From a virus, in the IMG/VR virus record IMGVR_UViG_3300020424_000038, positions 1 to 21,696 of that record: a DNA stretch of 21,696 bases; one strand, written 5' to 3'. Numbering within the stretch: the first letter of the stretch is position 1; each line of letters opens with the position of its first letter. Positions 1,356 through 21,696 of the stretch are shown one piece after another. Under the pieces are notes generated by a model, which was given only the letters and a program-made list of their open reading frames with translations, searched no databases and was not told the origin of the DNA. A program made the translations under genes and the position numbers.

Positions 1356-4300
1356 ATGCCAACTACATTAACTGAAAATTTATTTGCGACAAAGTACAAA
1401 GACGACTATCAAGACAGTCATGGCTTTCACAGAATATTATTTAATCCTAGAAGAGCTCTTCAAGCAAGAGAACTTATACAATTACAAACTATCATACAAA
1501 AAGAAATTGAAAGATTTGGAAAAAATATATTTAAAGAAGGTTCAGCTGTTAATCCTGGTGGATTAGTCATAAACAGCAATTATGAATTTATTAAAATAAC
1601 TGATCCAACTTTTCCAACAGATATTATAGGAACAGAATTTACTGGTCAGACATCTGGTGTCATAATAAAAGTATTAAATACCGTTGCTACAGAAGGATCA
1701 GATCCGAATACGTTATACGTAAGATATACAAACAGTATAGCAGGAACATCAGGTAATACTCCGATTAGAGTTACACCAGGTGAGCAATTAACATCTAATG
1801 TTGGTGCTTCAAATATGACGGTGCAAACAATCAATACCGCTTCTAATCCAGCAGTAGGTGCTGGGGTTAGAGTTAGTATTGGTGCGAGTGACTTCTTTGT
1901 ACAAGGATTTTTTGTAAGTGTAGATGCTCAATCATTAATTATATCAAAGTATGATAAGTCCAAATCAGTTGACATCGGATTCAAAGTTACACAAGATATA
2001 GTAAATGTTAATGATGATGTTAATTTATTTGATAATCAAGGTGGATCATTAAATCAAACAGCACCTGGAGCAGATAGATTTAGAATTAAACTTTCATTAG
2101 TAACTCAAGATTCTATTGTTGCAGGTGAAACATTTGTACCTATTGCAAAGATAGAAAATTCTAGAATTATTGAAACAAACAACGGTCAAAACTCTTATAA
2201 CAGAATAAATGATATTATAGCGCAAAGAACAAAGGAAGAGTCTGGAAATTATATTGTTGATCCTTTTACAGTTTCATATGATTCTGCAGATGTTTCTAAT
2301 TTACAACTTACAGTAAGTGAAGGTACAGCATATGTTAATGGTTATAGAGTTAATAATCCAACACCAACAAAAATAAACGTACCAAGATCTACAGATACTA
2401 TACCATTTAATAATCAGCCTGTTTCTATTTCATTTGGAAATTTTATTATAGCTTCTAGTGCAAAAATTACTGCTGATATGATATCCGCTCATACTAAATT
2501 AAATATATCAACTCATGCCTCGAATCCTGCAGGAAGTATAATAGGATCTGCCAGAGTGAGATCTTTAGAAAAACTTACTGATGGAACATTTAAAGTCTTC
2601 TTATTTGATGTTAAAATAAACTCAGGATCTAACTTTAGAGCAGCGAGAACAATAGGAACATCTGCAAATCAAACTTTTATTTTAAAAACAAAAACTGATA
2701 CAAACAATAATGTTGTAGCAGAACTTTTTGAAGCTGATAATGAAAAATTATTATTTCAATTACCTTCAGTAAGACCGTCATCAATTTCTGATATCAATGT
2801 GGCTGTTCAAAGGATATTTGAAGGTACAACCGATTCAGTTGGTAACCTTGGTATAAACCTGACTGCACCTGGTGAAACTTTTACATTAACCTCTGATTGG
2901 TTAGCTTTTAGATCAGATAGTGGTCCTGAGATTACAATGCCAAGTATTCCTACTGGAAATGCTACTGCAGCATCTAGTGTTAGTACTAATATGCCAAATA
3001 AACAAATAACGGTTTTTGGTTATGTTAATAAGGCTTCAGCTGGAGCAAAAGGTAAATCAATTACTACCAGAACCGTTACTGGTACTGCTGCCGTTGAATC
3101 TGATGGAATGGGCAACTCAATAACGGCTTTAGCGCTGGGTGCGAATGATATAATCAGTATCACTTCTATTAACAAAGATAGCGCCAGTGGAATAGATGTT
3201 ACGCATATGTATGATCTCGATAATGGGCAAAGAGATGCATACTATCAACAAGGTAAGGTTGTTCTTAAAAATGAATTTTCTAATCCTGGATCTGTGGTGG
3301 TAGCATGTCAACATTATGTTCATACAACTACTGGTGACTTTTATAATGTTAACTCATACAATACTACAGCGTATTCTGACATTCCAGAGTTTACTTCCAA
3401 AACTGGTGATGTAATTAAACTTAGAGACGTTTATGACTTCAGACCATCAAAAGATGTTAATGGTGGGTTTACAGGATCTGGCCATAGGATTATCGGTCTT
3501 CCAAAAAATACTACAACTTTAACTTCAGATAATACTTATTTTAAACCTAGAAACGATAAGATTACAATTACAGAAACTGGTGATATTAAGGTTATACAAG
3601 GATCTTCATCTTTAACTCCAAAATTTCCAGAAACGCCAACAAACTCACTAGAACTATATAGAGTAAAAATGGGTGCGAATACTCTTAATGGTGAAGATGT
3701 TTCATATGATTTGATAGAGGCAAAAGGCTTTACGATGAAAGACATCGGAAAGATTGAAAAAAGAATTGAAAGAATAGAAGAATTACATAGTCTCAGCATA
3801 TTAGAACTTGATACTAATAAGCTTTCTGTAACTGATTCATCTGGAAATGAAAGAGTTAAAGTTGGATTTTCAGTAGATAACTTTAAAGATCAAGCGCAGT
3901 CAGCAATTACTAGCTCTCAATATAGCGCTTCAATAGATCCAAAAGATCATTCGTTACATCCTGCATATTATGAAAATAATATAGGACTAGTTTATGATTC
4001 AGATGATACTGATACATCAGGTGTTATAAGAAAAGGTGATAACGTTTACATCGACTTTATTGATTCTGCTGAAATTGAGCAACTTCAAGTTTCAAAAGCA
4101 ATTGATATAAACTCATTTGATATATTTCAATTTAACGGGCATATTAGGTTATCTCCATCTTCAGATGATTTCAGAGATAAATTTAAGTCTGGAACAAAGT
4201 CTATTTCTGGTGCTAATACTCTTTCAAAAGATGAAAATACACTTTGGGAAAGTTGGAAATGGAATTGGATTGGAACAAGCTTTGATGGAACAGTAACTGA

Positions 4301-8167: not shown

Positions 8168-8638
8168 ATGGCAATTTTTTCAAAAACTCATGTAAACGCT
8201 TATTTTATAGATAATAAAAAAAATCAGATAGAAGTTATCTATAAAAACGAATCAGGACAAAATATCCCTTATAACATACCAGTCAATTGGAGTCATCCAG
8301 ACTTTCAAGAGGTTATTAGATTATACCCTCTAGAAGAGTTAGAGCGAAAGTGGGATAATGCTCATGACATACGAAGTTGGAACCCTGAAGCTCGATTACG
8401 AAAAGCATTAGATAAAAAAATTAAAGAAGAAACAGAACCAGTTACTGATGCTTATCAAGTGTTAAGATTTTTAGAAAAAAATTCAACTGACATGAAATAT
8501 TTGTTTCCCTTTAAAGTCAAAGTACTATCATTACCCGTTATAAAAGAAGCTGATCAAGACATCAAAAATAAAATACAAAAAGCAAAAAACATGTATTCTG
8601 TAATTGGAATAATAGGAGAAGTTTTAAGTGGCGAATAA
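8168..8638 (+). CDS. Unknown protein (156 aa) heading the glycosyltransferase cassette
   Basis: I do not recognise this protein. It begins MAIFSKTHVNAYFIDNKKNQ, continues with strand-like sequence (IEVIYKNESGQNIPYNIPVN), and is then mainly helical and charged: YPLEELERKWDNAHDIRSWN, KALDKKIKEETEPVTDAYQV. A hydrophobic C-terminal stretch near VIGIIGEVL is too short for a confident membrane helix. It has no signal peptide and few Asp-Ser dipeptides, unlike the virion proteins before it. Its stop overlaps the next start by 11 nt, tying it to the glycosyltransferase genes. The ATG at 8168 has no good Shine-Dalgarno; a 12-codon frame starting at the ATG at 8157 and ending at 8195 overlaps it and may feed ribosomes to it. 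It could be a partner or adaptor of the cassette or a small virion protein. Confidence 0.65.
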   Translation: MAIFSKTHVNAYFIDNKKNQIEVIYKNESGQNIPYNIPVNWSHPDFQEVIRLYPLEELERKWDNAHDIRSWNPEARLRKALDKKIKEETEPVTDAYQVLRFLEKNSTDMKYLFPFKVKVLSLPVIKEADQDIKNKIQKAKNMYSVIGIIGEVLSGE

Positions 8639-9344
8639 AGTAATTTATTTAAGATGGGGTAAAAGATATACTAAAGATCATGTTGTGAGATTAGAAGAAC
8701 AAGTAAAAAATAATTGTTCGGTACCTTATGAATTTTTAACTATAAATCATTGCTATGCTGGTGCAGAATATGACACAATGGATTGGGCTCAAAGAACTTA
8801 TTATAGAGGAGAAGATGATGTTGAAGAATCTACCTCATCACAAAACAATTTTTTAAGAGAAGATCTTGGAGGACTAGCTCACTGGCAAAAATTATTAATG
8901 TTTAGATTTGATAGAGAATATTTTGATTGGGAAGATAAATTATTGTATATAGACTTAGATTCAAATATTAAAGGAGATCTTGCTTACTTTTTTAATTTAC
9001 CGGTAGAAAAACCAATGATTGCCTATGATTGGGATGCTTATGATAATAACAAATGGCAACACTCATACACTACCAGAGCACATCCATTATATAATAGCTC
9101 AGTCATATTATGGAAAACTCACCACCTCCAAAAAATTTGGAGCGAAATTGAAAAGCTCAATGGATCTTATTATCAATTTGGAATGATAGATAATTGGTTA
9201 TTTCACAGGTTTGGGCCGTGGGCTTATAATTCTAAACATAAAAATTTCTTTACTCCTTTTGATAGAGATATTATATCAAAAAATGGAATTATTGAAACTA
9301 TGTCTGGTACAACTATTGAAGAAAAAATAAAATGTCTGGCTTAA
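8628..9344 (+). CDS. GT-A type glycosyltransferase 1 (238 aa)
   Basis: Predicted sugar-nucleotide glycosyltransferase of the GT-A fold. The metal-binding DxD motif lies in LLYIDLDSNIKGDL (Asp109 and Asp111), at the expected place after a first alpha/beta half that starts VIYLRWG. Later family-like elements are PLYNSSVILW (about 153-162), which would build the acceptor side, and DNWLFHRFGPW (from about 188), whose Asp may be catalytic or metal-linked. The length of 238 residues suits a compact GT-A domain with no membrane segment, so it should act in the cytoplasm. The start codon is GTG, supported by AGGAGA about eight nucleotides upstream; it overlaps the preceding gene by 11 nt. The gene at 10048 encodes a clear paralogue. 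Donor and acceptor cannot be told from sequence. Confidence 0.8.
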   Translation: MANKVIYLRWGKRYTKDHVVRLEEQVKNNCSVPYEFLTINHCYAGAEYDTMDWAQRTYYRGEDDVEESTSSQNNFLREDLGGLAHWQKLLMFRFDREYFDWEDKLLYIDLDSNIKGDLAYFFNLPVEKPMIAYDWDAYDNNKWQHSYTTRAHPLYNSSVILWKTHHLQKIWSEIEKLNGSYYQFGMIDNWLFHRFGPWAYNSKHKNFFTPFDRDIISKNGIIETMSGTTIEEKIKCLA

Positions 9345-10060
9345 AAATGTTTAAAACATATGACATGATGTGGCAAGTGCTTCATAACGTACTTGATGAA
9401 CCTGTTCTCAGTATGAAAATGTTTGAAGCATATGATGGTGCAATAAAGTTTGTAACGGACGTTTATCCTTACAGAGAAAAAGAGGTGTATGAAGCAATTA
9501 GAGACGGTAAGGATTCGATCTATAATTGTGATGTATATAAGAAATGGTGCTATAAAAAATTACTAGAATTAAATTTACATGAAGCGTATGACTTGTCAAA
9601 AACTAATGTAGTTTCTGCCGGATATTGTTTTTATGACGCTCGTTTTTGGTTAAAGCTTGGTATCAAAACTATTTGGCTTTATGAACTTGATGAAGAAATA
9701 CGAAAAATAAATTGGAGACTGACTGACTATGTTAAAGAAGATATTAAAATATTAGGAAAAACTTTAGACTGCGTTCTTGATAAAGATTATTTAATAAAAG
9801 ATGTAGGGCTTCATATTAATTTTAACTGTGAAAAATATTATCACATGAAAGAAGCCATAAAAAAAGAAGAGTATCCTAGTAATTGTGTGTTTGTTTTTTG
9901 CGGATCAAGTTTAAAATACAATGGTCCAGGAACTATTGGTAATGGTAACATAAACATATGTGATACACTAGATGATTTTATAGAGACATTACCAAATATG
10001 AATATATTTTTTAAAGATACAATGAATCATAAACACATGGTGATTGGATGCTTAGAGTAA
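9332..10060 (+). CDS. Rossmann-like protein 1 (242 aa), divergent methyltransferase-type fold
   Basis: After a helical N-terminal third, the segment VVSAGYCFYDARFWLKLGIK (from about residue 93) followed by TIWLYELDEE has the strand-loop-helix-strand pattern of class I SAM-dependent methyltransferases, with an acidic residue ending strand 2, but the classical GxGxG loop is degenerate. Further on come HINFNCEKYYHM (about residue 160) and CVFVFCGSS, then GNINICDTLDDFIE. The same order occurs in the protein at 10721 (WINTSCEHCYPM, LCVVSGND, GHINLITSLDELK), so the two are paralogues. Nine cysteines in 242 residues is unusual beside nearly Cys-free virion proteins. The first ATG overlaps the upstream gene by 13 nt; an in-frame ATG at 9347, just after the upstream stop, is an alternative start. 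Methyltransferase activity is not assured; a sugar-nucleotide-binding or structural role is possible. Confidence 0.6.
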   Translation: MSGLKMFKTYDMMWQVLHNVLDEPVLSMKMFEAYDGAIKFVTDVYPYREKEVYEAIRDGKDSIYNCDVYKKWCYKKLLELNLHEAYDLSKTNVVSAGYCFYDARFWLKLGIKTIWLYELDEEIRKINWRLTDYVKEDIKILGKTLDCVLDKDYLIKDVGLHINFNCEKYYHMKEAIKKEEYPSNCVFVFCGSSLKYNGPGTIGNGNINICDTLDDFIETLPNMNIFFKDTMNHKHMVIGCLE

Positions 10061-10743
10061 TATGCGCCAAGTGGGGTAATTATGATGATAATACTATAAC
10101 ACAATTATACAACAATGTAAAGGAAAAAAGTTCAGTTTCTTTTGATTTTTTATGTTTTACAGAGTTTAGTGATGAGTTTAATAAATATCAACATCAAAAA
10201 GATGGATATGACTATTGGGATCAAGGTGGTCTCCCTCATTCAAATAAGATTCAATTATTCAAGTTAGATGAAAAGTTTGATAAAAACGATAAGATATTAT
10301 ATCTTGATCTTGATGTTGACGTTACTGATGACATAGCGTATTTCTTCGAACTTCCAAATGATAAACCTTACATGACTTGGAACTATTGGGCTGAATACAA
10401 ACCAGAAGAATGGAGACGATTGTATAATATATCTCATTGTCCTCTATATAATAGTTCAGTGATGTTATGGAAACCTGGTCAAAATAGATCAATATATAAT
10501 TTTTTAAAGAAAAATGCAGATAAAGCATTTTTTACGTATAGAGGAATAGATACATTTATGTTTCATCATTTCGGTCCGTACACACCAATGAAAGATCATT
10601 TTAATTATTTTCGAGAAGGTGTGATCACAACTCATAGAATACATGGACATCCTGATTACGACTATGATCCACCTGTTATACATATATTAGAAGGATTAAC
10701 ATCAGAAGAGAAAAAAAGATATGTATCTAATAGAAGAAGATGA
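10048..10743 (+). CDS. GT-A type glycosyltransferase 2 (231 aa), paralogue of GT1
   Basis: This is a second GT-A enzyme, alignable with GT1 over its whole length: VICAKWGNYDD matches the GT1 start, QGGLPHSNKIQLFKLDEKF matches its LGGLAHWQKLLMF region, and KILYLDLDVDVTDDIAYFF carries the DxD motif (Asp87, Asp89). PLYNSSVMLW (about 132-141) and DTFMFHHFGPY (from about 168) match the corresponding GT1 motifs almost residue for residue. The C-terminal part contains HRIHGHPDYDYDPP, not obvious in GT1, so acceptor specificity may differ. There is no membrane segment. The start overlaps the Rossmann gene by 13 nt. Family knowledge supports transfer from a nucleotide-sugar with a divalent metal; the actual sugar and acceptor are unknown. 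Confidence 0.8.
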   Translation: MLRVICAKWGNYDDNTITQLYNNVKEKSSVSFDFLCFTEFSDEFNKYQHQKDGYDYWDQGGLPHSNKIQLFKLDEKFDKNDKILYLDLDVDVTDDIAYFFELPNDKPYMTWNYWAEYKPEEWRRLYNISHCPLYNSSVMLWKPGQNRSIYNFLKKNADKAFFTYRGIDTFMFHHFGPYTPMKDHFNYFREGVITTHRIHGHPDYDYDPPVIHILEGLTSEEKKRYVSNRRR

Positions 10744-11296
10744 TGTAATACGAATTCAGAGAATTGTTGATGAAACAAGATGGCATCACCCTTATATGTG
10801 GCCAAGTATAAGTAATCAGATTTCATTGACAGAATTCAAGATACAAAAATGGTGGGCTAGTAAAATAGATCTAATAGACAAAACTGTAAATATTTTTAAC
10901 TCTGGTTTTGGATTTTATTCAGTACCTTTTGCAAAAGAAAAAGGTGCAAAGAAAATATACACTTATGATATGTGCCCTACAATGAGTGAACTGATTAGTG
11001 GAAGTATACACTTTCAATCTAATTTTATTTTTATACCAGAAGATATTGAAGAAGCTGACGTATGGATTAATACAAGTTGTGAACATTGTTATCCTATGGG
11101 TGATATAATACCTGAAAATCAATTATGTGTTGTAAGTGGAAATGATTTAAATAAACCAGGTCATATAAATCTTATAACTAGTTTAGATGAACTAAAACAA
11201 CAATGCAACTTTTCAAAAATAATAGATGAGGATGTGATGACATTTGAAGAAGACGAAGAGAAATATTTTCAATATTTTATAATAGGTGTAAAATGA
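10721..11296 (+). CDS. Rossmann-like protein 2 (191 aa), putative SAM-dependent methyltransferase
   Basis: The sequence NIFNSGFGFYSVPFAKEKGA followed by KKIYTYDMCP (from about residue 56) resembles motif I and strand 2 of class I methyltransferases: a Gly-x-Gly loop, then an acidic residue that would bind the ribose of SAM. ADVWINTSCEHCYPM (about 113-126) resembles the strand-4 element, of NTSCEH type, found in phage proteins annotated as methyltransferases. LCVVSGND and GHINLITSLDELKQQ follow, as in the paralogue at 9332, which is longer at its N-terminus. The ATG at 10721 lies inside the GT2 gene (23-nt overlap), and its ribosome site is a weak AGAAG-type run. The stop overlaps the next start as ATGA. 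It may modify a sugar or protein made by the cassette; this is inference. Confidence 0.65.
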   Translation: MYLIEEDDVIRIQRIVDETRWHHPYMWPSISNQISLTEFKIQKWWASKIDLIDKTVNIFNSGFGFYSVPFAKEKGAKKIYTYDMCPTMSELISGSIHFQSNFIFIPEDIEEADVWINTSCEHCYPMGDIIPENQLCVVSGNDLNKPGHINLITSLDELKQQCNFSKIIDEDVMTFEEDEEKYFQYFIIGVK

Positions 11297-12192
11297 AGAG
11301 AATAATTTTTTCACTTTACATTGATATACCAGAAGAAAACTTAGACGAGACTGGTTATTCAAAACATGCCAGAAATAATAGACATAGAGAGCCAAGAGCA
11401 GCTGCGACAAAAGATAAACTAAGTGCATTTAGAAATAATTTGATCTGGAGTCATAAAACTTATGCAGATTATTGCGGTGCTGATTATCGAATATATCTTA
11501 CTGACAAAAAATGGTTTGATTACTACTTATCAATAAAAAAAATTCATGATAAGCTTCCAATGTATCATATTGTTAATTACTACAAGCATCATTTGATGTA
11601 TGAACTTGCTCGCGAAGGTTATGACGAAGTGTTTTATTGTGATATGGATGTTATTCCAGTTACAAAAGAAAGTATATTCGAACGTCATGATCTTTCATAC
11701 TTTTGGGCTAAAAATAATAATGAACTTGCAGAATGGTCAAAACATTGGGATTTAACTGAATATAATACTTGTGATAGAAATCCTGCTACAAAGTATTGGA
11801 ACACTTATGCTTTACTATTACAAGAAGGATGTGAACCTGAAAATGATGTTATTAATACTGGAACTATGATTGCAGGTAAAGATGTCATACTAGAAGTTAA
11901 TTGGGAAAAAGAATTTCCTATTATGGTTGAAAAAATGAAGAAACTTCAAGAAGATAAAGACACTATGTTTCCAGAAGCACTTCACAGTAGATTTGCTTTT
12001 GATAATGAAACTATGTTTAGCTATTTAGTACAATCTAAAAAGTTTAAATATAAAAGTCTTAGTAATATATGGCATGGTAGAATGCCATCTGATGGTCCAA
12101 ATCCAGATCATAAGATAATACATGCAATCAATAAAAAGTTTGAATTTATATGGCCTGAAGTTGATTACGAAGGAAGGGTTTATGACGAATGA
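11293..12192 (+). CDS. GT-A type glycosyltransferase 3 (299 aa)
   Basis: The protein starts MKRIIFSLYIDIPEEN; about residues 48-75 (NLIWSHKTYADYCGADYRIY) form the usual donor-binding half. VFYCDMDVIPVTKESIF holds the metal-binding DxD (Asp117, Asp119). VINTGTMIAGKDVI (about residue 186 on) and FDNETMFSYL (Asp237) are the later elements that in GT8-like and related GT-A enzymes line the active site. An IWHGRMPSDG segment near the C-terminus carries a His that could bind metal. It is larger than GT1 and GT2 and not obviously a recent copy of either. The ATG lies in an ATGA overlap with the upstream stop, with AGGTG just upstream, and the stop makes another ATGA overlap with GT4. Substrate is unknown. 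Confidence 0.8.
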   Translation: MKRIIFSLYIDIPEENLDETGYSKHARNNRHREPRAAATKDKLSAFRNNLIWSHKTYADYCGADYRIYLTDKKWFDYYLSIKKIHDKLPMYHIVNYYKHHLMYELAREGYDEVFYCDMDVIPVTKESIFERHDLSYFWAKNNNELAEWSKHWDLTEYNTCDRNPATKYWNTYALLLQEGCEPENDVINTGTMIAGKDVILEVNWEKEFPIMVEKMKKLQEDKDTMFPEALHSRFAFDNETMFSYLVQSKKFKYKSLSNIWHGRMPSDGPNPDHKIIHAINKKFEFIWPEVDYEGRVYDE

Positions 12193-12857
12193 AGATATAT
12201 GCGTTAAGAATAGGAGATAAGTATGGACCTGAATACGAAACGTATATTAAAAGCAAACTAAAAGACTATGATTTAACAATTGTAAATGAACCTTTTGATC
12301 CTAGGGTTGCATTACAATGGAATAAAATGTTCTTTATGGCTCTTGAAATCGATGAGCCTATTTGCGTTATTGATATTGACCTAATACTAATTAATGATTA
12401 CAAAAAGATATTTGATTATCCTATCAAAAAAGGTCAGTTTTTAGGAATGAGACAATGGTGGGATAACACTGACGTGCAACTTATTAATGGTGGATTTTTT
12501 AAATACTATCCAACAGATTGTAAGTATATATTCGATAAGTTCATGAAAAATATAGAATATTGGCAGTCATACTATATTGAAAAGGGTGTAACTGTTGGAC
12601 CTGTCAATGGTGAACAAAACTTTGTAGAAGAATCAGTAAAAGAAAAACTTGAATTAATTACATTTAGCGACAAATGGTGTACACGCTGGACTCAAAATCC
12701 TGAAATTAATAAAAATCTAAATAATCGATATTTCAAATATTTTCGTGAACCTATGATACTAGGAAGTGAATTTAATGTAAGAATTAAGATGGTACACTTC
12801 ACCTATTCACTTAATAAACCACATGAAAGTCAAATGTTTAAACATCTGTACACTTGA
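12189..12857 (+). CDS. GT-A type glycosyltransferase 4 (222 aa), last gene of the cassette
   Basis: The short N-terminus MKIYALRIGDKYGPEYETY is followed by ALQWNKMFFMAL, then ICVIDIDLILINDYKKIF with the DxD motif (Asp62, Asp64). QLINGGFFKYYPTDCKYIF (about residues 97-115) and NGEQNFVEE (from about 140) correspond to the product-side loop and the Asp/Glu-Gln element of compact GT-A enzymes. The end has MVHFTYSLNKPHESQM, where a His could be the third metal ligand. It has no membrane segment. It overlaps GT3 by 4 nt (ATGA), with AAGGAAGGG about ten nucleotides upstream as ribosome site. After the stop comes a 70-nt gap with a late promoter, so this gene closes the cassette. Donor and acceptor unknown. 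Confidence 0.78.
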   Translation: MKIYALRIGDKYGPEYETYIKSKLKDYDLTIVNEPFDPRVALQWNKMFFMALEIDEPICVIDIDLILINDYKKIFDYPIKKGQFLGMRQWWDNTDVQLINGGFFKYYPTDCKYIFDKFMKNIEYWQSYYIEKGVTVGPVNGEQNFVEESVKEKLELITFSDKWCTRWTQNPEINKNLNNRYFKYFREPMILGSEFNVRIKMVHFTYSLNKPHESQMFKHLYT

Positions 12858-12927: not shown

Positions 12928-13134
12928 ATGGGTAAGCAGATTATAAACATTGGCACAACAGCCAATGATAACACGGGTGATGATCTCCGTACAGCTGGAG
13001 ATAAAATAAACGACAATTTCACAGAACTTTATAATTTCGATTCAGTTGGTATAGTCAATAAGGCTAAACTACAACAAATACTTACATCTTCTGATAGCTA
13101 TGGCTCCTTTAAATCTGCAATATTAGCACTTTAA
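12928..13134 (+). CDS. Small virion protein (68 aa) with NIGTTANDNTGDDLR motif
   Basis: First gene after the late promoter, with AGGAG at 12917-12921. The whole N-terminal half is the motif INIGTTANDNTGDDLRTAGD followed by KINDNFTELYNF, a signature widely found at the N-terminus of phage tail-fibre, neck and minor structural proteins, including many in marine T4-like phages, where small stand-alone versions also occur. The remaining 30 residues are mostly helical (NKAKLQQILTSSDSYGSF). No enzyme motif is present. It is probably a minor virion protein or an attachment/trimerisation module for the fibres encoded downstream; that role is inferred. The stop codon overlaps the strong ribosome site of the next gene. 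Confidence 0.75.
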   Translation: MGKQIINIGTTANDNTGDDLRTAGDKINDNFTELYNFDSVGIVNKAKLQQILTSSDSYGSFKSAILAL

Positions 13135-13838: not shown

Positions 13839-16800
13839 ATGACTTCACTAATTCAAATAAAGAGATCGGCCACTCAATCAAAACCAGATAAACTGAGAAT
13901 AGGTGAACTTGCTTATTCATATCTTGATAGTGGTGCGGCTGATGACTCCAATCGCGGTTTAAAATTATGGATAGGTGCTGGAGTTCCAGCAGGTGGTTTA
14001 GATTCAAATTTTATCGCTGATAGTGTACAATCTATTGGAGGTAAATTCTACACAGAAAAATTAGATGTTAATAAATTTGGTATTACTGAAGGAAACAAAT
14101 TTGTACTTCTGGACAGTAATCGTAATATTAATTTTATTAACATTGATTCATCAACAGTAAATGAACTACAAGCAAATCAGTTAGTAACGATGAATAATTT
14201 AGTAGTGCCTGTTGGTACTACAGCTCAGAGACCTTCACCTTTTGCTTTAGGACAAATAAGATTTAACACAGATACTACAACGTTTGAAGGTTATGATGGA
14301 AATGCTTGGGGATCTTTAGGCGGAATAAAAGATATTGATCAGGATACTTTTATTCAAGCTGAAACAAGTCCAAATGCTGATAATGATGATTTAAGATTTT
14401 TTACTGCGGGTACTAAAAGATTAGATATTGATGAGCAAGGAAAGATTGTTGTACCACCGACATATACACCTGATAGCGCATTTTCAATAACTACTAAAAA
14501 ATATGTGGATGAGAGAGTACTGTTTACTCCTACTGACTCAAGTTTAACAGATGGTGCATTTACAGGATTCACTGCAAATGATACGCTTACTGATGTAATC
14601 GATGGTTTGAATGAAGCTATTAATAATGTGAGAACTAATACATTTGTAAGAGGGCTAACGTTTGTAGCAAATCCACTACAAGGTGGCGCAGGTTTTACCA
14701 CTACATTAGCATTTACAAATGATGGAAATCCAAACAGATATGATATAAACTGGGGAGATGGATTTATTGATTCAGCTGTTTCAAGTAACAGTCCAACACA
14801 CGTTTATAATAATCCTTTAGTAAGTCCAGCATCAATTACTGTGAGAGCTTTCAATACAGGCGCGGTTGGAACAGGAAGTGAAGCATTTAGGACAAATGCA
14901 GATTACATTACAATATTTACTGCTGATCCCGTTGCAAACTTTGAGTTATATAGAAATGCCACTGGAGGTTCTGCTTTAACAGGTAATGATGTTTATGTTA
15001 TTGAAGGACAACCTTTATATTTAAGAAACACAACAACAAATACTCAAGTTGCAAACAAACTTGGACCGGCAGCAGTCGAATACTCAGTTAACTGGGGTGA
15101 TGGAACTTCTTTAGATAATGTTGCTAATGATAGTGCCTCTGGTGGTGTCATAGGATCTAGATTGATTCATACTTGGGCAAATGGTACTCATTCTTATAAA
15201 TCAAGAGATACAGTACTATTAAGTTTAGATAGTCATACGACTGCTGATCCATCAGTTGTACCGTCAACCAAAAGTATTTTATTAAAAGTATATGACGATA
15301 ATCCCGCAACTCCAGAGGGTTTATCAACAAAAACAGTATCTTTTGGTGGACCCTCATCTGGAATATCTCCACTTTTACCTGCTGGCGCAACAAAACATTT
15401 TACAGGTGCAGCCCAAACATCCGCAGGATCTTCTATTGCAAGAACAATAACAACAACAGGTGATATATCAACTACAGCAATATCAACATTTGCACATGAT
15501 GCAGGCGCCGGGACGTTAAGTGCTCAAGTAAACGGTAATGCAAATGGTAGTGTAGTAATGGACGGATCAAGTAAAGTTGGTAGATATACGAGTTTAGATG
15601 TTACTGATCATTCTGATTTTAATTTATTAGATTCATCAGGAACAAACACAACTTTTGCTCTTAGTCATATTCATCCAAATAAATTTTTTGGATTTAAAGC
15701 AAGAGTACTTAAAGCTGCCAGTGCCGTTAACGCAGGTTTAAATGACTTTGGATTAGATCATAGTACAACTGGAACAACTAACATTGTTGAATATGTAAAA
15801 GATGATGTTACAGCAGCTCCTACAGCTGCAAGTGGAACACTAACACAAAACGTGGCAGGTGGTTTTAGATTTATTAGTGGAATACCATATTATAATTCAG
15901 GATCTCCAAGTCTAACATTATCAGGAATCACACTAGCTAATTTAACAGGCAAGGCCTATAGAGATACAAACTCACCTTTCCAAGTCAAAAGTGGAACAAA
16001 CTTTGAAGGTACTACACAAAATGCCATAACCGATCAAGATTATACATATGCGCAAATAGATGGATCAACAACATTTTTAACTGGTGGTATTCCTCAAGAG
16101 GACGTTGGTGTTGCTTCACCCTATGCCATTGGAAATGTTACTATTCCAATAACAAGTGGTAGTGTTCGAACAGTTGAGGAATTAAGAGTAAGAGGAAGAA
16201 ATTGTAATGGTAATGGTGCATTTCATAATCTTACAGCTACAAAAGTTCAAGTACATACTGCAGCTCAATCAGGTGTTCATGAAATTTCGACTTCAGTTTC
16301 TAATTCATTAGGTGCTACATATGCAGATAATGCAATAAGAATATTTGATTTCAGCGCGGCAACAATAAATACTCCTAGTTACACTGGAACAACTAATTTT
16401 TATACAAACAATGTTTATACAGAAGCAAGTGATCCTGGTGTAGCTGGAACACAAGAGGCATCAATAAGAATTGGAATTCTAAAACATGATGTAACTAACT
16501 ACAGTACTGGATTTCTTCCTGTTGGTCCAAATCGATCAGGTGATACTGGAACTCAATTTGCAACATTTGCTTTTAGAAGAACGGCAGTTGCAAGTTTTAC
16601 TATAAACTTGATAAGTCCAACTGGAATATTAGGAGCCTTTATTGCTCTTCCAGGAACTGCTACTGACAACACTAGTAGTTTAAATGGTTGGCTCGAATGT
16701 TCAACACAGTATGCCGGTGCTGGAACACCTGGTCAAAACTTAGGGCCTGGAGGAAATGGAAGTAATGGTGTTGCATCAACTGGTGGAGATAGAATTTTAA

Positions 16801-16934
16801 GTAATACATCATTGAATGGTGCATTTACAATGAATCTTGGAACACAAAATATGACAAATTCAACTGGTAATGTTTGTTTAATAAGATTTGCCTTGACATC
16901 AGGTCAAAGCATAACCTCTTTTAGTATAACGTAA
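13839..16934 (+). CDS. Tail fibre-like virion protein with two PKD-like domains (1031 aa)
   Basis: The start MTSLIQIKRSATQSKPDKLR and NRGLKLWIGAG match the N-terminal attachment region of fibre proteins in marine T4-like phages. About residues 125-190 hold a widespread fibre module: VPVGTTAQRPSPFALGQIRF, TFEGYDGNAWGSLGG and IKDIDQDTFIQAETS. About 265-345 and 417-490 each contain an Ig-like PKD-type domain, recognised by INWGDG...HVYNN and VNWGDGTSLD followed by a later LLKVYD strand. The remaining 540 residues are Gly/Ser/Thr-rich beta sequence with PYYNSGSPSLTLSGIT and AYRDTNSPFQV, also typical of marine phage fibres, and end in FALTSGQSITSFSIT. No signal peptide or membrane helix is seen. 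PKD domains are protein- or carbohydrate-binding beta sandwiches, so this is a candidate receptor-contact or fibre-linking protein. The gene is complete; AGGA at the upstream stop serves as ribosome site. Confidence 0.8.
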   Translation: MTSLIQIKRSATQSKPDKLRIGELAYSYLDSGAADDSNRGLKLWIGAGVPAGGLDSNFIADSVQSIGGKFYTEKLDVNKFGITEGNKFVLLDSNRNINFINIDSSTVNELQANQLVTMNNLVVPVGTTAQRPSPFALGQIRFNTDTTTFEGYDGNAWGSLGGIKDIDQDTFIQAETSPNADNDDLRFFTAGTKRLDIDEQGKIVVPPTYTPDSAFSITTKKYVDERVLFTPTDSSLTDGAFTGFTANDTLTDVIDGLNEAINNVRTNTFVRGLTFVANPLQGGAGFTTTLAFTNDGNPNRYDINWGDGFIDSAVSSNSPTHVYNNPLVSPASITVRAFNTGAVGTGSEAFRTNADYITIFTADPVANFELYRNATGGSALTGNDVYVIEGQPLYLRNTTTNTQVANKLGPAAVEYSVNWGDGTSLDNVANDSASGGVIGSRLIHTWANGTHSYKSRDTVLLSLDSHTTADPSVVPSTKSILLKVYDDNPATPEGLSTKTVSFGGPSSGISPLLPAGATKHFTGAAQTSAGSSIARTITTTGDISTTAISTFAHDAGAGTLSAQVNGNANGSVVMDGSSKVGRYTSLDVTDHSDFNLLDSSGTNTTFALSHIHPNKFFGFKARVLKAASAVNAGLNDFGLDHSTTGTTNIVEYVKDDVTAAPTAASGTLTQNVAGGFRFISGIPYYNSGSPSLTLSGITLANLTGKAYRDTNSPFQVKSGTNFEGTTQNAITDQDYTYAQIDGSTTFLTGGIPQEDVGVASPYAIGNVTIPITSGSVRTVEELRVRGRNCNGNGAFHNLTATKVQVHTAAQSGVHEISTSVSNSLGATYADNAIRIFDFSAATINTPSYTGTTNFYTNNVYTEASDPGVAGTQEASIRIGILKHDVTNYSTGFLPVGPNRSGDTGTQFATFAFRRTAVASFTINLISPTGILGAFIALPGTATDNTSSLNGWLECSTQYAGAGTPGQNLGPGGNGSNGVASTGGDRILSNTSLNGAFTMNLGTQNMTNSTGNVCLIRFALTSGQSITSFSIT

Positions 16935-16944
16935 GGAAAGTATA

Positions 16945-19900
16945 ATGGCAATAACAGACCAACAAAAACTAGACTTTCTATTTAAAAAGCTCGGATTTGG
17001 AGCTGCTAAAACAGATACTAATGCTTTAAAGGCTGCCGTTAATGAAGAAAATCCAAGTCCATTACTTTTAAATGGTAACGATCTCTTTACTGAAGCTTAT
17101 GGTATTCCTTCAACAAAGCCAACATCTTCTACTTATCCCGTTAAAGTTTATCAAGATGCAGCCGGTGGAGAAAATACCAAAGAAACTAGTATGCTTGGAA
17201 CAGCATCTACAAATAGGTCTTGGGTTACAGGACTTACAGATTGGATTCCTCCTCAGTTCGGTTCAACTTATCAAATTAAAGTTTACATGGATAATCCCGG
17301 TGCCAGTAATCCTGAAAGTACTGGAACACAGTTGTTTGCCGCTGGTTCTGGCAACAATGACGAATGGTTTTTCGACTATCAATCTGGTATTTTGAATTTT
17401 ATTGGAGTAAATCTTCCTTCTGGTATCGGAGGAAAGAGAATATACATTGTTGGTGCAAGGTATATCGGTAAAAAAGGAAATAGATTTTCTGTACTTTACT
17501 CAGATTCACTAGATGCTGGTCATTTGATGGCAGACTCTGCCAATATTACCAGAGGTGAAATAATAACTGCTGTTATCGATTCTGCCGATATTATGCATGC
17601 TATCATAGATTCTGCTGATATTACTTTAGGTAGAATTTCAACTGTTACTGCAACAAATCTTACAGCAGATTCAGCTCATATCAAAAAATTAAGTGCTGAT
17701 AGTCTATCATTATCTGAATTAACTGCTAATATAATTACTGCAAATCAGATACAAGGTCCAGCGAATATGGTTATTGATCCTGCTGCAGTAGGAGATGCGA
17801 CAGGACTTGTACAAATACTTGGTAATCTTCAAGTTGAAGGAACTACAACAACTATAAACTCAACAACGGTTTCTTTAAATGATAAAAATCTAGTTCTTGC
17901 AGATTCTGCAATAAATGCAGCCGCTGCAGATGGAGCTGGAATAACTGTAAAACTAGATCAAATAGGTAATGTTGCAACAATATTATATAAATCAACTGAT
18001 GATAAATGGGAGGTCAATAAAGACTTTCACGTTCCTAATTTAAATGCTGATTCAGCCGACATCGGTTTACTAAGATCTGATAGTGCAGTTATTACAAATG
18101 CAGAAATAACTAACTTAACTGCAGATTCTGCAAGATTAAAAATCTTTCAACTTGACTCTGGCAGAATTGGAAAGATCCAATCAATTGATTCTGCTCGAGC
18201 AACTAACTTTCATATTGAACAAGGAACAGCAGCAAAACTTGATGTTGACTCGGCATCATTTGAAACCTTAAGTGCTAGATCATTTCAAATGGCTACAACG
18301 CCTAATAGATTTTTAGTTGCTGATGCAAATAACGTTGTAGGAACATCTGTTAATTTTGTTGGAAATAATGCTAGAGTTGATTTTTATAGCAGTGCTGTTC
18401 AAATTCATAATACTGGTATTATTGACGCGACTGCTGGTGTTAACGTTGGAACCGGAACTGCTCTTTCCTCACAACATGTAAATACTAATAATGTCAGCAC
18501 CTCTAAATTAAAAATTTCTAGTATTCTTCAGAAAAGAATACCATTTACTAAATCAGGAGATTCATTAGCTGGAACTGATGATCTTATGTTTGGATCTCAC
18601 ACATCAATGTTCCAAACTCATGACGGAGTAGGAGTAGGTTTCAATCCACTTATGGATAGTGGAAACTATAGATTTACTATAGACACACTTTCAGGAAAAA
18701 TTACTAATACTGGTGGATTTAAAATAGGTAGACATAATAATATACCTACTGGACAATATATTTTTAATCGTCCCTACAGATTAAATTCATCACAACAGGC
18801 TGCGGATCATCAAGTAGAAGATCATAATAGAGATTTCTATGGACTTGAACTAAAGCTTGACTCTGGACAATTAATATCGACCGCATTCAGAAATGAATTT
18901 AAATCACCCATGCATGTGATCAACCCGGTATCAACTGATAGAAAAATTATAGATGTAAAAGGCTTAGGTGATTCAGATGTATTTGCTGTTTTTGCTGATG
19001 GCTCAATCGATTTCTTTGGAAATCTAAGACGTAAAGGAGTACCTTTTGCGGCTGGTGGTATTTTCCAAAAAGATAGTGATACACAAAATTCTCATTTTGT
19101 TCCAAAAATTACTAGTGAAATACAAAATACAAATCAATTTGGATTTGGATTTGTAGCTATAAATCAAGAGCCTCATGAACAAGGCGAACATATTGCTAAA
19201 CTACAACATTCAGTTCCTTCTACACATCAGTCTCATAGTAATGTTATAAACAGACAAAAATATAATTTAAGTGTCGATGGAACCTTTGCAGTTAGAGGAG
19301 ATATTGATTCAACTGGAGTGGACTATGTTATAACTCCTGGCGCGGTTTACAATTGGACTAACCCAACAACAGGAGTAACAAATAAGGTTAATTATGCAGA
19401 CGACAGTGATAAATCAAGATTACTTTATATTCCAAGTAAAGCAATTTTAAGAGCTGGATTATTACATGATAGTGCAATAAGATCTGCCACAATGGGTATG
19501 TTTTCAACTGGAACTGGTTATGCACCAGTTGCACAAGGAGAAGGATCTATAGCTATGGGTATGAATGCCCGAGCTAGAAGTAATCATTCAATATCTCTAG
19601 GTTTTCACAATGATAATAAAAGTTCGTTAAACATTCATACTGTTCAGATAGGATCTCAAAATACTGCAGATCCTAGTGCTGCTTCGACCCAAAAGACAAC
19701 TTTTATTGGTCATGAAAATCACTTGCGCGGAAATAACTCTGTTGTAATCGGTAGCGGAAACAACACTATGGATGATACTATCGGTGCTGGTGATAATTCT
19801 GTTATAATTGGTACTCTAAACAAACTAGGTCTAAGAGGATCTAACGCGTCTGCCAATGGTGCGGGATCAGTTATAATTGGTAGACAAAATGAGTTAGGTC

Positions 19901-21696
19901 CTACTACCGCAATGTACGCAATAGGTGCACAAAACAGAATGACTGTAAGAGCAGCTGGATCTTATGTTCTAGGTGCAGGTAACTATGTTGATGCTGCACA
20001 AACTCTAACGCTTGGTACAAATCACACTGTTGCGGCTAATAATGGCGTTGCGATAGGTACAAGAGGTAAAATAGATTCAAATGCTAACTTCAGTGTAATT
20101 ATTGGTTTAGATGACAATACAGATCAAGATGTATCTGATCCTAACATTATGTCAGTGCAAGGCGGAAACGTAATTCTTGGTGATAGCGTCGACAAATTTA
20201 CTGCCGTACAGTATCCTGCTCAAGGAAACTTATATGTGGCAGGATCACTTATAGTTGCTGGTAGCATCTTAGAAGAAACAGCTCCTGGAATAACATCTTC
20301 TACTACACCGTTTACAGATGATGGAAGAGACATTTCAGCTAATCTTACCGGAGCAGTTAGAAGATTTGGTTTTAATGATGCTCATCCATATCAGTCGGCA
20401 GTTTTCAAAGGACAAGAGGGATTTCAATATTCAGGTAGTCTTCTCCTCCCTGGAGTAAGTGGACCAACTGGGTATACGATAGATCCATATCCATTTGTAG
20501 ATGATGATGATGATCCTTCTACACCAGAAGTTCCAACTGGACAAGTTGATTCCGCTTTATATGATTCAAATGATACTAACAATAGTATGATCAGCTATAT
20601 TGGTAAGACTGGTACTTTTAAACTTGGTACATTCAGTGGTGGTGCTATATATGACACATACTTGAGACCAGGAAGAGTTGGTTTTCAATCAATATCAATC
20701 GGTAAGAACAATATAAACGCTGGTTTAAGAACAACTGTAATAGGACAAGGAAACAATATTCAAAGAGGCGGTGGTCCTAAGTTAATTCCTGGAACTAACA
20801 GACCGTTAAATCCTGGTGATTCTTTAAACGTTGCTTCACTTAGAGCGAGCGATATGATCGTCATTGGTGACGAGAATGTTTATGACAGTGCAGCTACTGG
20901 TAAGAAAGTTATGGTTCTTGGTCATGGTAATATTATCCAAGGTTCTGCAGAAAATAAGATTGTCATAGGTGGTTTCGCAAAACCTATTAATAACAGTATT
21001 CTATCTGGCGGAACAAAGTATGACAGAGAAATTATAATGAAATATGCTGACTCTATAGGTCAGGATTCATTAAACAATACTCATATAGCGGTAGGAAAAA
21101 ATAAAGTATCGGGTAATTATACCATAGACATGAGAGGTGATCTTCATCTTGATAGTGGATCAAGAATTATAATCGGCGATGAAGCTGGGCAAGGGCTTAA
21201 AATACTTCCCGTTTCTTTTTTCAATCCAATAGTTCCACAAGTTGGTCCAGATCCATTAGAAAGAACTGTACAAATAGCAACAGAAGCTAGTGCAATAGGA
21301 GGCGGAATACTAAGCATCACTACTGATCCTTCTAATAGAATCGTTGTTACAACTATCAGTAATCATAATCTTCCAAGCGCTGGAACAGATTCAACTGTAG
21401 GTGTTTCATTCCATACTGTGCCAACTTCACCTAATGGAATAACCGGACTGGAAGATGCTGATCGCCACTTTATCCCATCAGTCATTAACGCCACTTCGTT
21501 CTTTTTACTTGAAGACTCTTACAGATCAGGAACTTTTGTTAAAAGTGGAGTACAAGCAACTGATGAAGATGGTGATACTTTTACAATTTCAAAGGTAGGT
21601 ACCGGTGTTGGAAATATAAACAACATAAGACTGGACAGAATGCACTATGCTCGCCCATTACGGCTTGCAGATAACTTCTCCACAGATGGTGATTTG
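16945..21696 (+). CDS. Very large tail fibre-like virion protein, runs off the right edge (at least 1584 aa)
   Basis: The frame from ATG 16945 (AAGGAA upstream) stays open to the last base, 1584 codons without a stop. The N-terminus (LDFLFKKLGFGAAKTDTNAL, LTDWIPPQFGSTYQIKVYMD, GSGNNDEWFFDYQSGILNFI) is a conserved fibre attachment domain of marine T4-like phages. About residues 186-439 carry an Asp-Ser repeat shaft (IDSADI, ADSAHIKKL), interrupted near 290-340 by the common fibre module VEGTTTTINSTTVSLNDKNL. About 867-1058 and 1247-1415 are blocks of short GSIAMGM / NSVVIGSGNN units like the beta-roll of YadA-type trimeric adhesin heads. Between them is an acidic DDDDDPSTP linker. A NHNL...GITGL module lies near 1470-1510. 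It is probably a trimeric receptor-binding or long side fibre. A C-terminal chaperone or knob would lie beyond the window. Confidence 0.82.
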   Translation, partial: MAITDQQKLDFLFKKLGFGAAKTDTNALKAAVNEENPSPLLLNGNDLFTEAYGIPSTKPTSSTYPVKVYQDAAGGENTKETSMLGTASTNRSWVTGLTDWIPPQFGSTYQIKVYMDNPGASNPESTGTQLFAAGSGNNDEWFFDYQSGILNFIGVNLPSGIGGKRIYIVGARYIGKKGNRFSVLYSDSLDAGHLMADSANITRGEIITAVIDSADIMHAIIDSADITLGRISTVTATNLTADSAHIKKLSADSLSLSELTANIITANQIQGPANMVIDPAAVGDATGLVQILGNLQVEGTTTTINSTTVSLNDKNLVLADSAINAAAADGAGITVKLDQIGNVATILYKSTDDKWEVNKDFHVPNLNADSADIGLLRSDSAVITNAEITNLTADSARLKIFQLDSGRIGKIQSIDSARATNFHIEQGTAAKLDVDSASFETLSARSFQMATTPNRFLVADANNVVGTSVNFVGNNARVDFYSSAVQIHNTGIIDATAGVNVGTGTALSSQHVNTNNVSTSKLKISSILQKRIPFTKSGDSLAGTDDLMFGSHTSMFQTHDGVGVGFNPLMDSGNYRFTIDTLSGKITNTGGFKIGRHNNIPTGQYIFNRPYRLNSSQQAADHQVEDHNRDFYGLELKLDSGQLISTAFRNEFKSPMHVINPVSTDRKIIDVKGLGDSDVFAVFADGSIDFFGNLRRKGVPFAAGGIFQKDSDTQNSHFVPKITSEIQNTNQFGFGFVAINQEPHEQGEHIAKLQHSVPSTHQSHSNVINRQKYNLSVDGTFAVRGDIDSTGVDYVITPGAVYNWTNPTTGVTNKVNYADDSDKSRLLYIPSKAILRAGLLHDSAIRSATMGMFSTGTGYAPVAQGEGSIAMGMNARARSNHSISLGFHNDNKSSLNIHTVQIGSQNTADPSAASTQKTTFIGHENHLRGNNSVVIGSGNNTMDDTIGAGDNSVIIGTLNKLGLRGSNASANGAGSVIIGRQNELGPTTAMYAIGAQNRMTVRAAGSYVLGAGNYVDAAQTLTLGTNHTVAANNGVAIGTRGKIDSNANFSVIIGLDDNTDQDVSDPNIMSVQGGNVILGDSVDKFTAVQYPAQGNLYVAGSLIVAGSILEETAPGITSSTTPFTDDGRDISANLTGAVRRFGFNDAHPYQSAVFKGQEGFQYSGSLLLPGVSGPTGYTIDPYPFVDDDDDPSTPEVPTGQVDSALYDSNDTNNSMISYIGKTGTFKLGTFSGGAIYDTYLRPGRVGFQSISIGKNNINAGLRTTVIGQGNNIQRGGGPKLIPGTNRPLNPGDSLNVASLRASDMIVIGDENVYDSAATGKKVMVLGHGNIIQGSAENKIVIGGFAKPINNSILSGGTKYDREIIMKYADSIGQDSLNNTHIAVGKNKVSGNYTIDMRGDLHLDSGSRIIIGDEAGQGLKILPVSFFNPIVPQVGPDPLERTVQIATEASAIGGGILSITTDPSNRIVVTTISNHNLPSAGTDSTVGVSFHTVPTSPNGITGLEDADRHFIPSVINATSFFLLEDSYRSGTFVKSGVQATDEDGDTFTISKVGTGVGNINNIRLDRMHYARPLRLADNFSTDGDL
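17500..18261 (+). repeat. Asp-Ser repeat shaft in the large fibre
   Basis: At least a dozen units of the form (A/I/L/V)DSxxI/L recur in two runs: DSLDAG, DSANI, IDSADI, IDSADI, ADSAHI, ADSLSL, then ADSADI, SDSAVI, ADSARL, LDSGRI, IDSARA, VDSASF. Spacing is irregular (about 8-20 residues). The pattern of hydrophobic positions suggests a repetitive trimeric shaft. Confidence 0.7.
19543..20118 (+). repeat. YadA-head-like beta-roll block 1 in the large fibre
   Basis: Successive units of about 14-20 residues share a hydrophobic-x-hydrophobic-Gly core often followed by Asn: SIAMGMNA, SISLGFHN, TVQIGSQN, TTFIGHEN, SVVIGSGN, SVIIGTLN, SVIIGRQN, MYAIGAQN, SYVLGAGN, LTLGTNH, VAIGTRG, SVIIGLDD. This matches the repeat of YadA-type head domains (left-handed parallel beta-roll, trimeric). 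Confidence 0.72.
20683..21189 (+). repeat. YadA-head-like beta-roll block 2 in the large fibre
   Basis: A second series of the same kind: SISIGKNN, TTVIGQGNN, MIVIGDEN, VMVLGHGN, KIVIGGFA, HIAVGKNK, RIIIGDEA. It is separated from block 1 by about 190 residues that include an acidic DDDDDPSTP linker, so the two rolls are probably distinct folded units. Confidence 0.68.

Follow-up and report, generated by a model that had tools for sequence, protein, structure and literature searches.

YadA-like domains in marine phage fibers are already in print; fibers with three such domains each, as in the family treated here, are less described. Earlier papers mention a T7-like tail fiber of a pelagiphage with a C-terminal YadA domain, reported in 2014 (PMC3909814), yadA homologues named in several phages, including P-HM2 (PMC3728262), a virion structural protein of cyanophage S-SZBM1 that contains a YadA domain (PMC9146016), and YadA domains among the structural proteins of pelagimyophages, where a cluster of tail fibers and glycosyltransferases lies between VrlC and gp14 (PMC7029224). 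The autotransporter BpaA carries several heads per chain (PMC2942831), as does the fiber described here. A comparison with the pelagiphage fiber shows one C-terminal YadA domain in a T7-like protein (PMC3909814), whereas the relatives of our giant fiber bear three rolls. No triple-roll giant fiber is described in the titles and abstract openings of the open papers surveyed on YadA-like domains in phages.

A further case is ORF108 of S-TIM4, a marine phage like ours. In gene order, ORF108 follows VrlC and two small ORFs and precedes gp13/gp14. It has been called a YadA-domain protein, and whichever of the three tested hosts the phage populations evolved on, the gene acquired mutations, at a larger number of sites when the hosts were sub-optimal (PMC6224464). 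However, Pfam shows Mtd_N and, at E ≤ 10, no YadA_head in the protein encoded at L098:35210-41920, and the roll profiles do not match it either. The YadA label is therefore not borne out by these tests, and ORF108 was rejected as the closest relative.

Gene neighborhood and layout of the fiber

The window, that is, the whole stretch of DNA analyzed, is IMG/VR record IMGVR_UViG_3300020424_000038, with 21,696 bases. Its genes suggest that this is the part of a T4-like myovirus genome that encodes the baseplate and host recognition. Upstream of the fiber are a gp8-like baseplate wedge protein (phrog_438, 2.4e-72) and a 1699-aa DUF4815 protein (Pfam), which is VrlC-like, the phage records that it matches including VrlC-annotated ones. 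Small ORFs, together with GT8-like and other enzyme-like genes, separate the DUF4815 protein from an ORF of 1031 aa (13839..16934, +; phrog_8578, E = 2.9e-63). The latter is found directly 5' of the fiber and is a syntenic partner, its counterpart directly preceding the giant fiber in the relatives L002, L004, L087, and L095. The locus resembles the host-recognition cluster already described for T4-like phages from the sea. In that cluster, the fiber comes after VrlC, accompanied by glycosyltransferases, and before gp14; in the window, gp8, the VrlC-like protein, and the GT8-like genes are upstream and the contig ends in the fiber. Identity to the cluster of L002 is 64-82% for the four genes just upstream of the fiber and 32-45% for four others. 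As for the larger context, the capsid protein encoded on the 177.5-kb contig of L095 is nearest to those of Phage C48C1 (66%), Methylophilales phages (61.6%), and Pelagibacter phage HTVC008M (61.2%).

Enzyme-like genes form a run at 8628-12857 within the tail cluster, a cluster that is retained in L002. A GT8-like match at 8628-9344 is just under the cut-off (4.4e-5), a second one is found at 10048-10743 (0.028), and 10721-11296 gives a weak methyltransferase match (0.0061). Also, a 68-aa ORF at 12928-13134, 72% conserved in L002, matches only the N-terminal 35-50 residues of connectors of the T4 gp9/gp10 type (Pfam 3.4e-8; phrog_677 6.3e-16) and appears to be a stand-alone connector N-terminus.

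The giant tail-fiber ORF (16945..21696, +) shows 1584 aa and no stop up to the end of the window. Its N-terminal domain (residues 1-215; 16945..17589, +) matches phrog_9417 (E = 8.3e-30) and is probably the part that attaches to the virion. An Asp-Ser shaft had been proposed in the preliminary description, and it is real: at residues 180-280 (17482..17784, +), DS pairs are 10, 15, 10, 20, and 10 residues apart, and autocorrelation and DS spacing give a period of 5/10/15. Asp-Ser shafts occur with two periods, this N-terminal one and another of 9/18 near the C-terminus of L002 and L095 (residues ~3150-3560). A regular Asp-Ser repeat, with DS spacing alternating between 10 and 15 residues, is likewise seen at the open 5' end of the fiber of L089 (L089:3-840).

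Repeat blocks and their relation to YadA heads

The preliminary description counted about 20 units with a hydrophobic-hydrophobic-Gly-x-x-Asn core in two blocks, which is confirmed here. If units are counted loosely, as x-hydrophobic-Gly centers at least 10 residues apart within block limits chosen by the analyst, 21 are obtained, 13 of them in roll 1 (residues 850-1060; 19492..20124, +) and 8 in roll 2 (residues 1245-1415; 20677..21189, +). The shuffle comparison (2000 shuffles) was made for the strict core, hydrophobic-hydrophobic-Gly-x-x-Asn, and for the same core without Asn, the loose count standing outside it. The strict core is found 11 times in the ORF, 9 of them inside the two blocks, against a shuffle mean of 1.9, and 0 of the 2000 shuffles reached 11. 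Block 1 holds 6 strict cores against 0.5 in shuffles, none of which reached this number, and block 2 holds 3 against 0.33 (0.3% reached). Without Asn, the core is far less striking, being 17 against 12.2 for the ORF (9.7% reached), 5 against 1.9 for block 1 (2.8%), and 5 against 2.1 for block 2 (4.9%).

The commonest unit spacing is 14 when rolls 1 and 2 of the window and of five relatives are taken together (33 of 112), the window fiber alone contributing 4 of 19; for roll 3 of the relatives it is 13. Block 1 is fairly regular, whereas block 2 is irregular with long inserts (spacings of 14, 41, 18, 16, 30, 12, and 27). The division into two blocks holds. The start first given, 19543 (residue 867), falls somewhat inside roll 1, which runs from about residue 850 and has a conserved cap before it. 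This entry cap (residues 825-849; 19417..19491, +) is recognized by a profile of bacterial caps, and the roll is followed by an exit element (residues 1061-1111; 20125..20277, +) with several invariant columns in six aligned fibers. Roll 2 is preceded by a degenerate entry cap (residues 1205-1244; 20557..20676, +), located with alignment A7, and has its exit motif at residue 1381.

A comparison of the block 1 profile, made from five fibers, with the PDB gives 30 sequences at E ≤ 10 and 8 at E ≤ 0.001, all adhesin heads. The best are CbpF (1.4e-16), 9gh4 (9.6e-9), 3wp8 (4.4e-8), and YadA (1p9h, 1.7e-7), 9gh4 being deposited as 'cell surface protein' and aligning almost like CbpF. The other matches at E ≤ 0.001 are EibD, BpaC, and two UspA1, and all eight are taken to be of the trimeric autotransporter kind. 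The reversed block 1 profile yields a single match in the PDB, with E = 1. For block 2, the five-sequence profile finds two CbpF-like chains, 9gh4 (3.2e-6) and CbpF (2.3e-5), and also weakly resembles LpxA left-handed helices (1.9e-3); with three sequences, the values for the CbpF-like chains (0.0039 and 0.046) and for LpxA (0.025) were not significant. Roll 3 matches YadA with L002 alone (4.3e-6) and with a two-sequence profile (1.2e-4), whereas L004 alone gives only 0.2. A single-sequence phmmer search of the whole ORF against the PDB is at chance level, its best E being 0.094.

The Pfam YadA_head model (PF05658) has a gathering score of 25 bits, which is missed by the window (14.3), L002 (17.8), L004 (22.0), and L095 (18.9), the scans of the L002 and L004 fibers covering all but their last 80 and 271 residues, respectively. 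For this reason, the blocks are called YadA-head-like and not members of the Pfam family. Block 1 of L002 matches NCBIfam YadA_autotrans at 3.4e-5, far below the family cut-off, and among the PHROG families, 36911 (function unknown) gives 5.8e-8 with block 1. In PF05658 heads as in the rolls of the fiber, a unit of about 14 residues built on a hydrophobic-Gly core (SVAIG-type) is repeated in tandem, the fiber often having Asn where the YadA motif has Ser. A search against YadA head families, proposed at the outset, is in this way favorable for the profile matches in the PDB and unfavorable for the Pfam gathering score. As whole proteins, type Vc autotransporter adhesins have a C-terminal YadA membrane anchor, whereas the complete L095 fiber (4062 aa) shows none in Pfam at E ≤ 1 and the N-terminus of the fiber is phrog_9417.

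A scan of genomes with roll 3 of L002 and L004 led to 20 bacterial loci, all titled metagenome-assembled genomes, so that some of the contigs may be of phage origin; 14 of the 20 are presumably Bacteroidetes, by title or taxonomic placement. In the proteins of these loci, the cap GARMMW-P-K-AFR-G stands at the entry to classic YadA-head repeats, and the exit motif is present in 4 of the 20 loci. All five of the proteins scanned in Pfam are above the YadA_head cut-off, and four of these five have Peptidase_S74. A profile of the 20 bacterial caps and first units matches residues 825-890 of the window fiber with an i-E of 7.5e-10 (E-values assuming Z = 1000 sequences) and also, in each of the five relatives, the beginning of roll 1 and of roll 3, whereas no match under 1 is obtained with 12 reversed or shuffled fibers. 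At roll 2, the values are 1.3e-7 for L095, 9.9e-6 for L087, and 7.4e-5 for L002, being weak for the window (i-E 0.1) and L004 (0.26); in L089 only the roll part is touched. Since the bacterial loci were picked by their likeness to roll 3, the cap test is independent for roll 1 and not for roll 3. In both the bacterial and the phage proteins, an entry cap precedes YadA-head repeats; however, the phage fiber has three modules per chain, N- and C-terminal domains of its own phage type, and no Peptidase_S74 in the complete L095 fiber (Pfam, E ≤ 1). Judged by the shared cap, the phage rolls are placed closer to these cap-roll proteins than to autotransporters taken as a whole.

Full-length relatives and the third roll

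Residues 1-220 find 266 relatives in IMG/VR, and the analysis covers the best 80 of them. The N-terminal domain is common to these 80 loci and the distal parts differ, which suggests a common base with exchangeable distal parts. Complete ORFs are present in 65 of the 80 (263-2970 aa, median 423); the other 15 extend past the end of their locus. The roll profiles match two of the 80, L002 and L004, both open when first retrieved; the remaining 13 open ORFs have 174-2273 aa. L003, the nearest relative after L002, ends at residue 846, just short of the roll. In addition, the frame after the giant fiber in the contig of L002 (L082:82-699) contains a stretch 43% identical to residues 256-474 of the window fiber.

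The first scan of viral contigs, with block 1 alone, found no relative, and the scan with a three-sequence profile recovered only the contigs of L002 and L004. Scans with roll alignments (A5 and A6) added L087, L088, L089, and L095. Among 50,697 phage records, no tblastn match was obtained for block 1 of the window (E ≤ 1), roll 3 of L002 (E ≤ 0.001), or roll 3 of L095 (E ≤ 1), searches in which the low-complexity filter may hide some matches. L088 is a near-copy of L087 (3823 of 3826 positions equal), the six contigs corresponding to five distinct proteins, with lengths of 3633 (L002), 3803 (L004), 3823 (L087), 4062 (L095), and at least 3736 aa (L089, 5' open). Each of them has three blocks at corresponding places, with loose counts of 12-15, 6-9, and 33-37 units in rolls 1, 2, and 3. 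Beyond roll 2, the relatives have a third, longer roll and a second Asp-Ser shaft, the shaft being examined in L002 and L095. The window fiber ends before the position of roll 3, and because all five distinct relatives have three blocks, the window probably shows two of three rolls. The multi-headed character proposed in the preliminary description was, if anything, understated.

Proposed receptor binding and alternative explanations

Based on these comparisons, we consider it probable that the two blocks are YadA-head-like beta-rolls in a giant, multi-headed, trimeric receptor-binding fiber of a T4-like myovirus. In this mechanism, the fiber, encoded downstream of VrlC in an apparent host-recognition cluster, would be attached to the virion by its N-terminus, the Asp-Ser segments would form the shaft, and three chains would assemble side by side. 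Each roll would then be a rigid head of three chains, able to bind molecules of the host envelope with its surface and its inserted loops, the loops being the likely contact points, and the succession of rolls would give several binding sites per fiber. The receptor-binding step is proposed by analogy and from the position of the fiber. The paper on CbpF discusses an interaction 'likely involving the identified loop' (PMC12012533).

A different role for the same fold is a live rival, namely that the rolls are real YadA-like heads serving as rigid spacers while the receptor is bound by the C-terminal domain beyond the window. At the C-terminus, where a chaperone or knob was sought, each of the five distinct relatives has a conserved domain of about 95 aa as its last part, the S74 chaperone being absent from L095 as noted above. 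The same domain ends shorter fibers that share the N-terminus (L039, L046, L052, L066, and L067), and it is this common ending, together with the internal position of the rolls, that keeps tip binding in play. Divergence is of little help: identity between the window and L002 is 70% for the N-terminal 180 residues, 38% for roll 1, and 32% for roll 2, and other distal stretches have 31% (residues 361-560) and 23% (residues 1418-1584). The rolls are no more diverged than other distal parts or some cluster genes, so divergence does not mark them as receptor-facing, which suits a spacer; the low identity of the rolls, equaled or undercut by other distal parts, was dropped as a mark of receptor contact. 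However, the C-terminal domain is somewhat more conserved between relatives (36-58%, the L004-L087 pair 84-89%) than the core stretches of roll 1 (24-45%), and a receptor tip would usually vary. Also, the YadA roll binds collagen (PMC2942831). We regard the spacer role as possible, although rather unlikely.

The fold itself could be another one, a right-handed beta-solenoid (tailspike- or TibA-like) whose 14-residue repeats only resemble YadA-head repeats. This is what the AlphaFold2 (AF2) models favor, which were built as single chains and for block 1 only. Their mean pLDDT is 60.6 with 3 alignment rows and 67.8 with 6 rows; in the 6-row model, long and short strands alternate, the first coils have a period of 14, and ten-residue means of pLDDT are 63-88 over residues ~11-190. 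Foldseek with these models gives nothing at E ≤ 0.001, and neither does the BFVD search, where two phage proteins named LbR/YadA appear at 0.36 and 0.67. In VIA-align, which only re-aligns Foldseek's list, the top rows are right-handed beta-helices (Vag8, Z 13.6, rmsd 4.0 over 255 residues; TibA for the 6-row model, Z 14.1, rmsd 3.1 over 196 residues), both models fitting such helices best with rmsd 3.1-5.6 over about 200-260 residues. The left-handed LpxD rows have Z 10.2-10.7 with rmsd above 10, and YadA-type heads are absent among the rows listed, their presence further down being possible. From this ranking, the models are taken as right-handed, which contradicts the left-handed roll expected from YadA. 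On the other hand, no right-handed helix is found in the profile searches at E ≤ 0.001, whereas adhesin heads reach 1e-16, and the commonest spacings (14 for rolls 1 and 2, 13 for roll 3) also speak against this fold. Moreover, the solenoids that AF2 builds from perfect repeats are reportedly unrealistic (PMC11795689), a caveat that applies only in part to the imperfect repeats of the fiber. Given these reported artifacts, the shallow alignments of 3 and 6 rows, and the single-chain modeling, the sequence evidence was weighted above the models, and a right-handed solenoid seems to us improbable. A different fold predicted with confidence would have counted against the YadA-head reading; the prediction found is different, but its confidence is only middling. 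That reading is partly supported, the match of block 1 to solved heads and of block 2 with five sequences speaking for it and the handedness of the single-chain models against it.

Finally, a chance or compositional repeat of a Gly/Asn-rich fiber, with no defined relation to YadA heads, is scarcely credible, because the sub-threshold YadA_head score, the irregular block 2, and the Asn-less core barely above shuffles are outweighed by the excess of the strict core over shuffles, the reversed profile, and the reversed or shuffled cap targets, which already contradict it.

Returning to the multi-headed receptor-binding fiber, a bolder version would be that the fibers of 3600-4100 residues are three strung cap-roll adhesin heads, of a kind that bacterial proteins have as well, each with its own envelope receptor, giving a multi-receptor, multi-point grip on the host; this is speculative and, in our estimate, unlikely. 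If the multi-headed reading is true, it would link a cap-roll module of bacterial proteins with the fibers by which marine myoviruses bind receptors, and a phage fiber could bear several heads in series, as multi-head autotransporters do. It would also provide candidate receptor-binding segments for phages whose fibers often carry no annotation beyond structural or hypothetical, and further segments of this kind could be sought with the cap and roll profiles.
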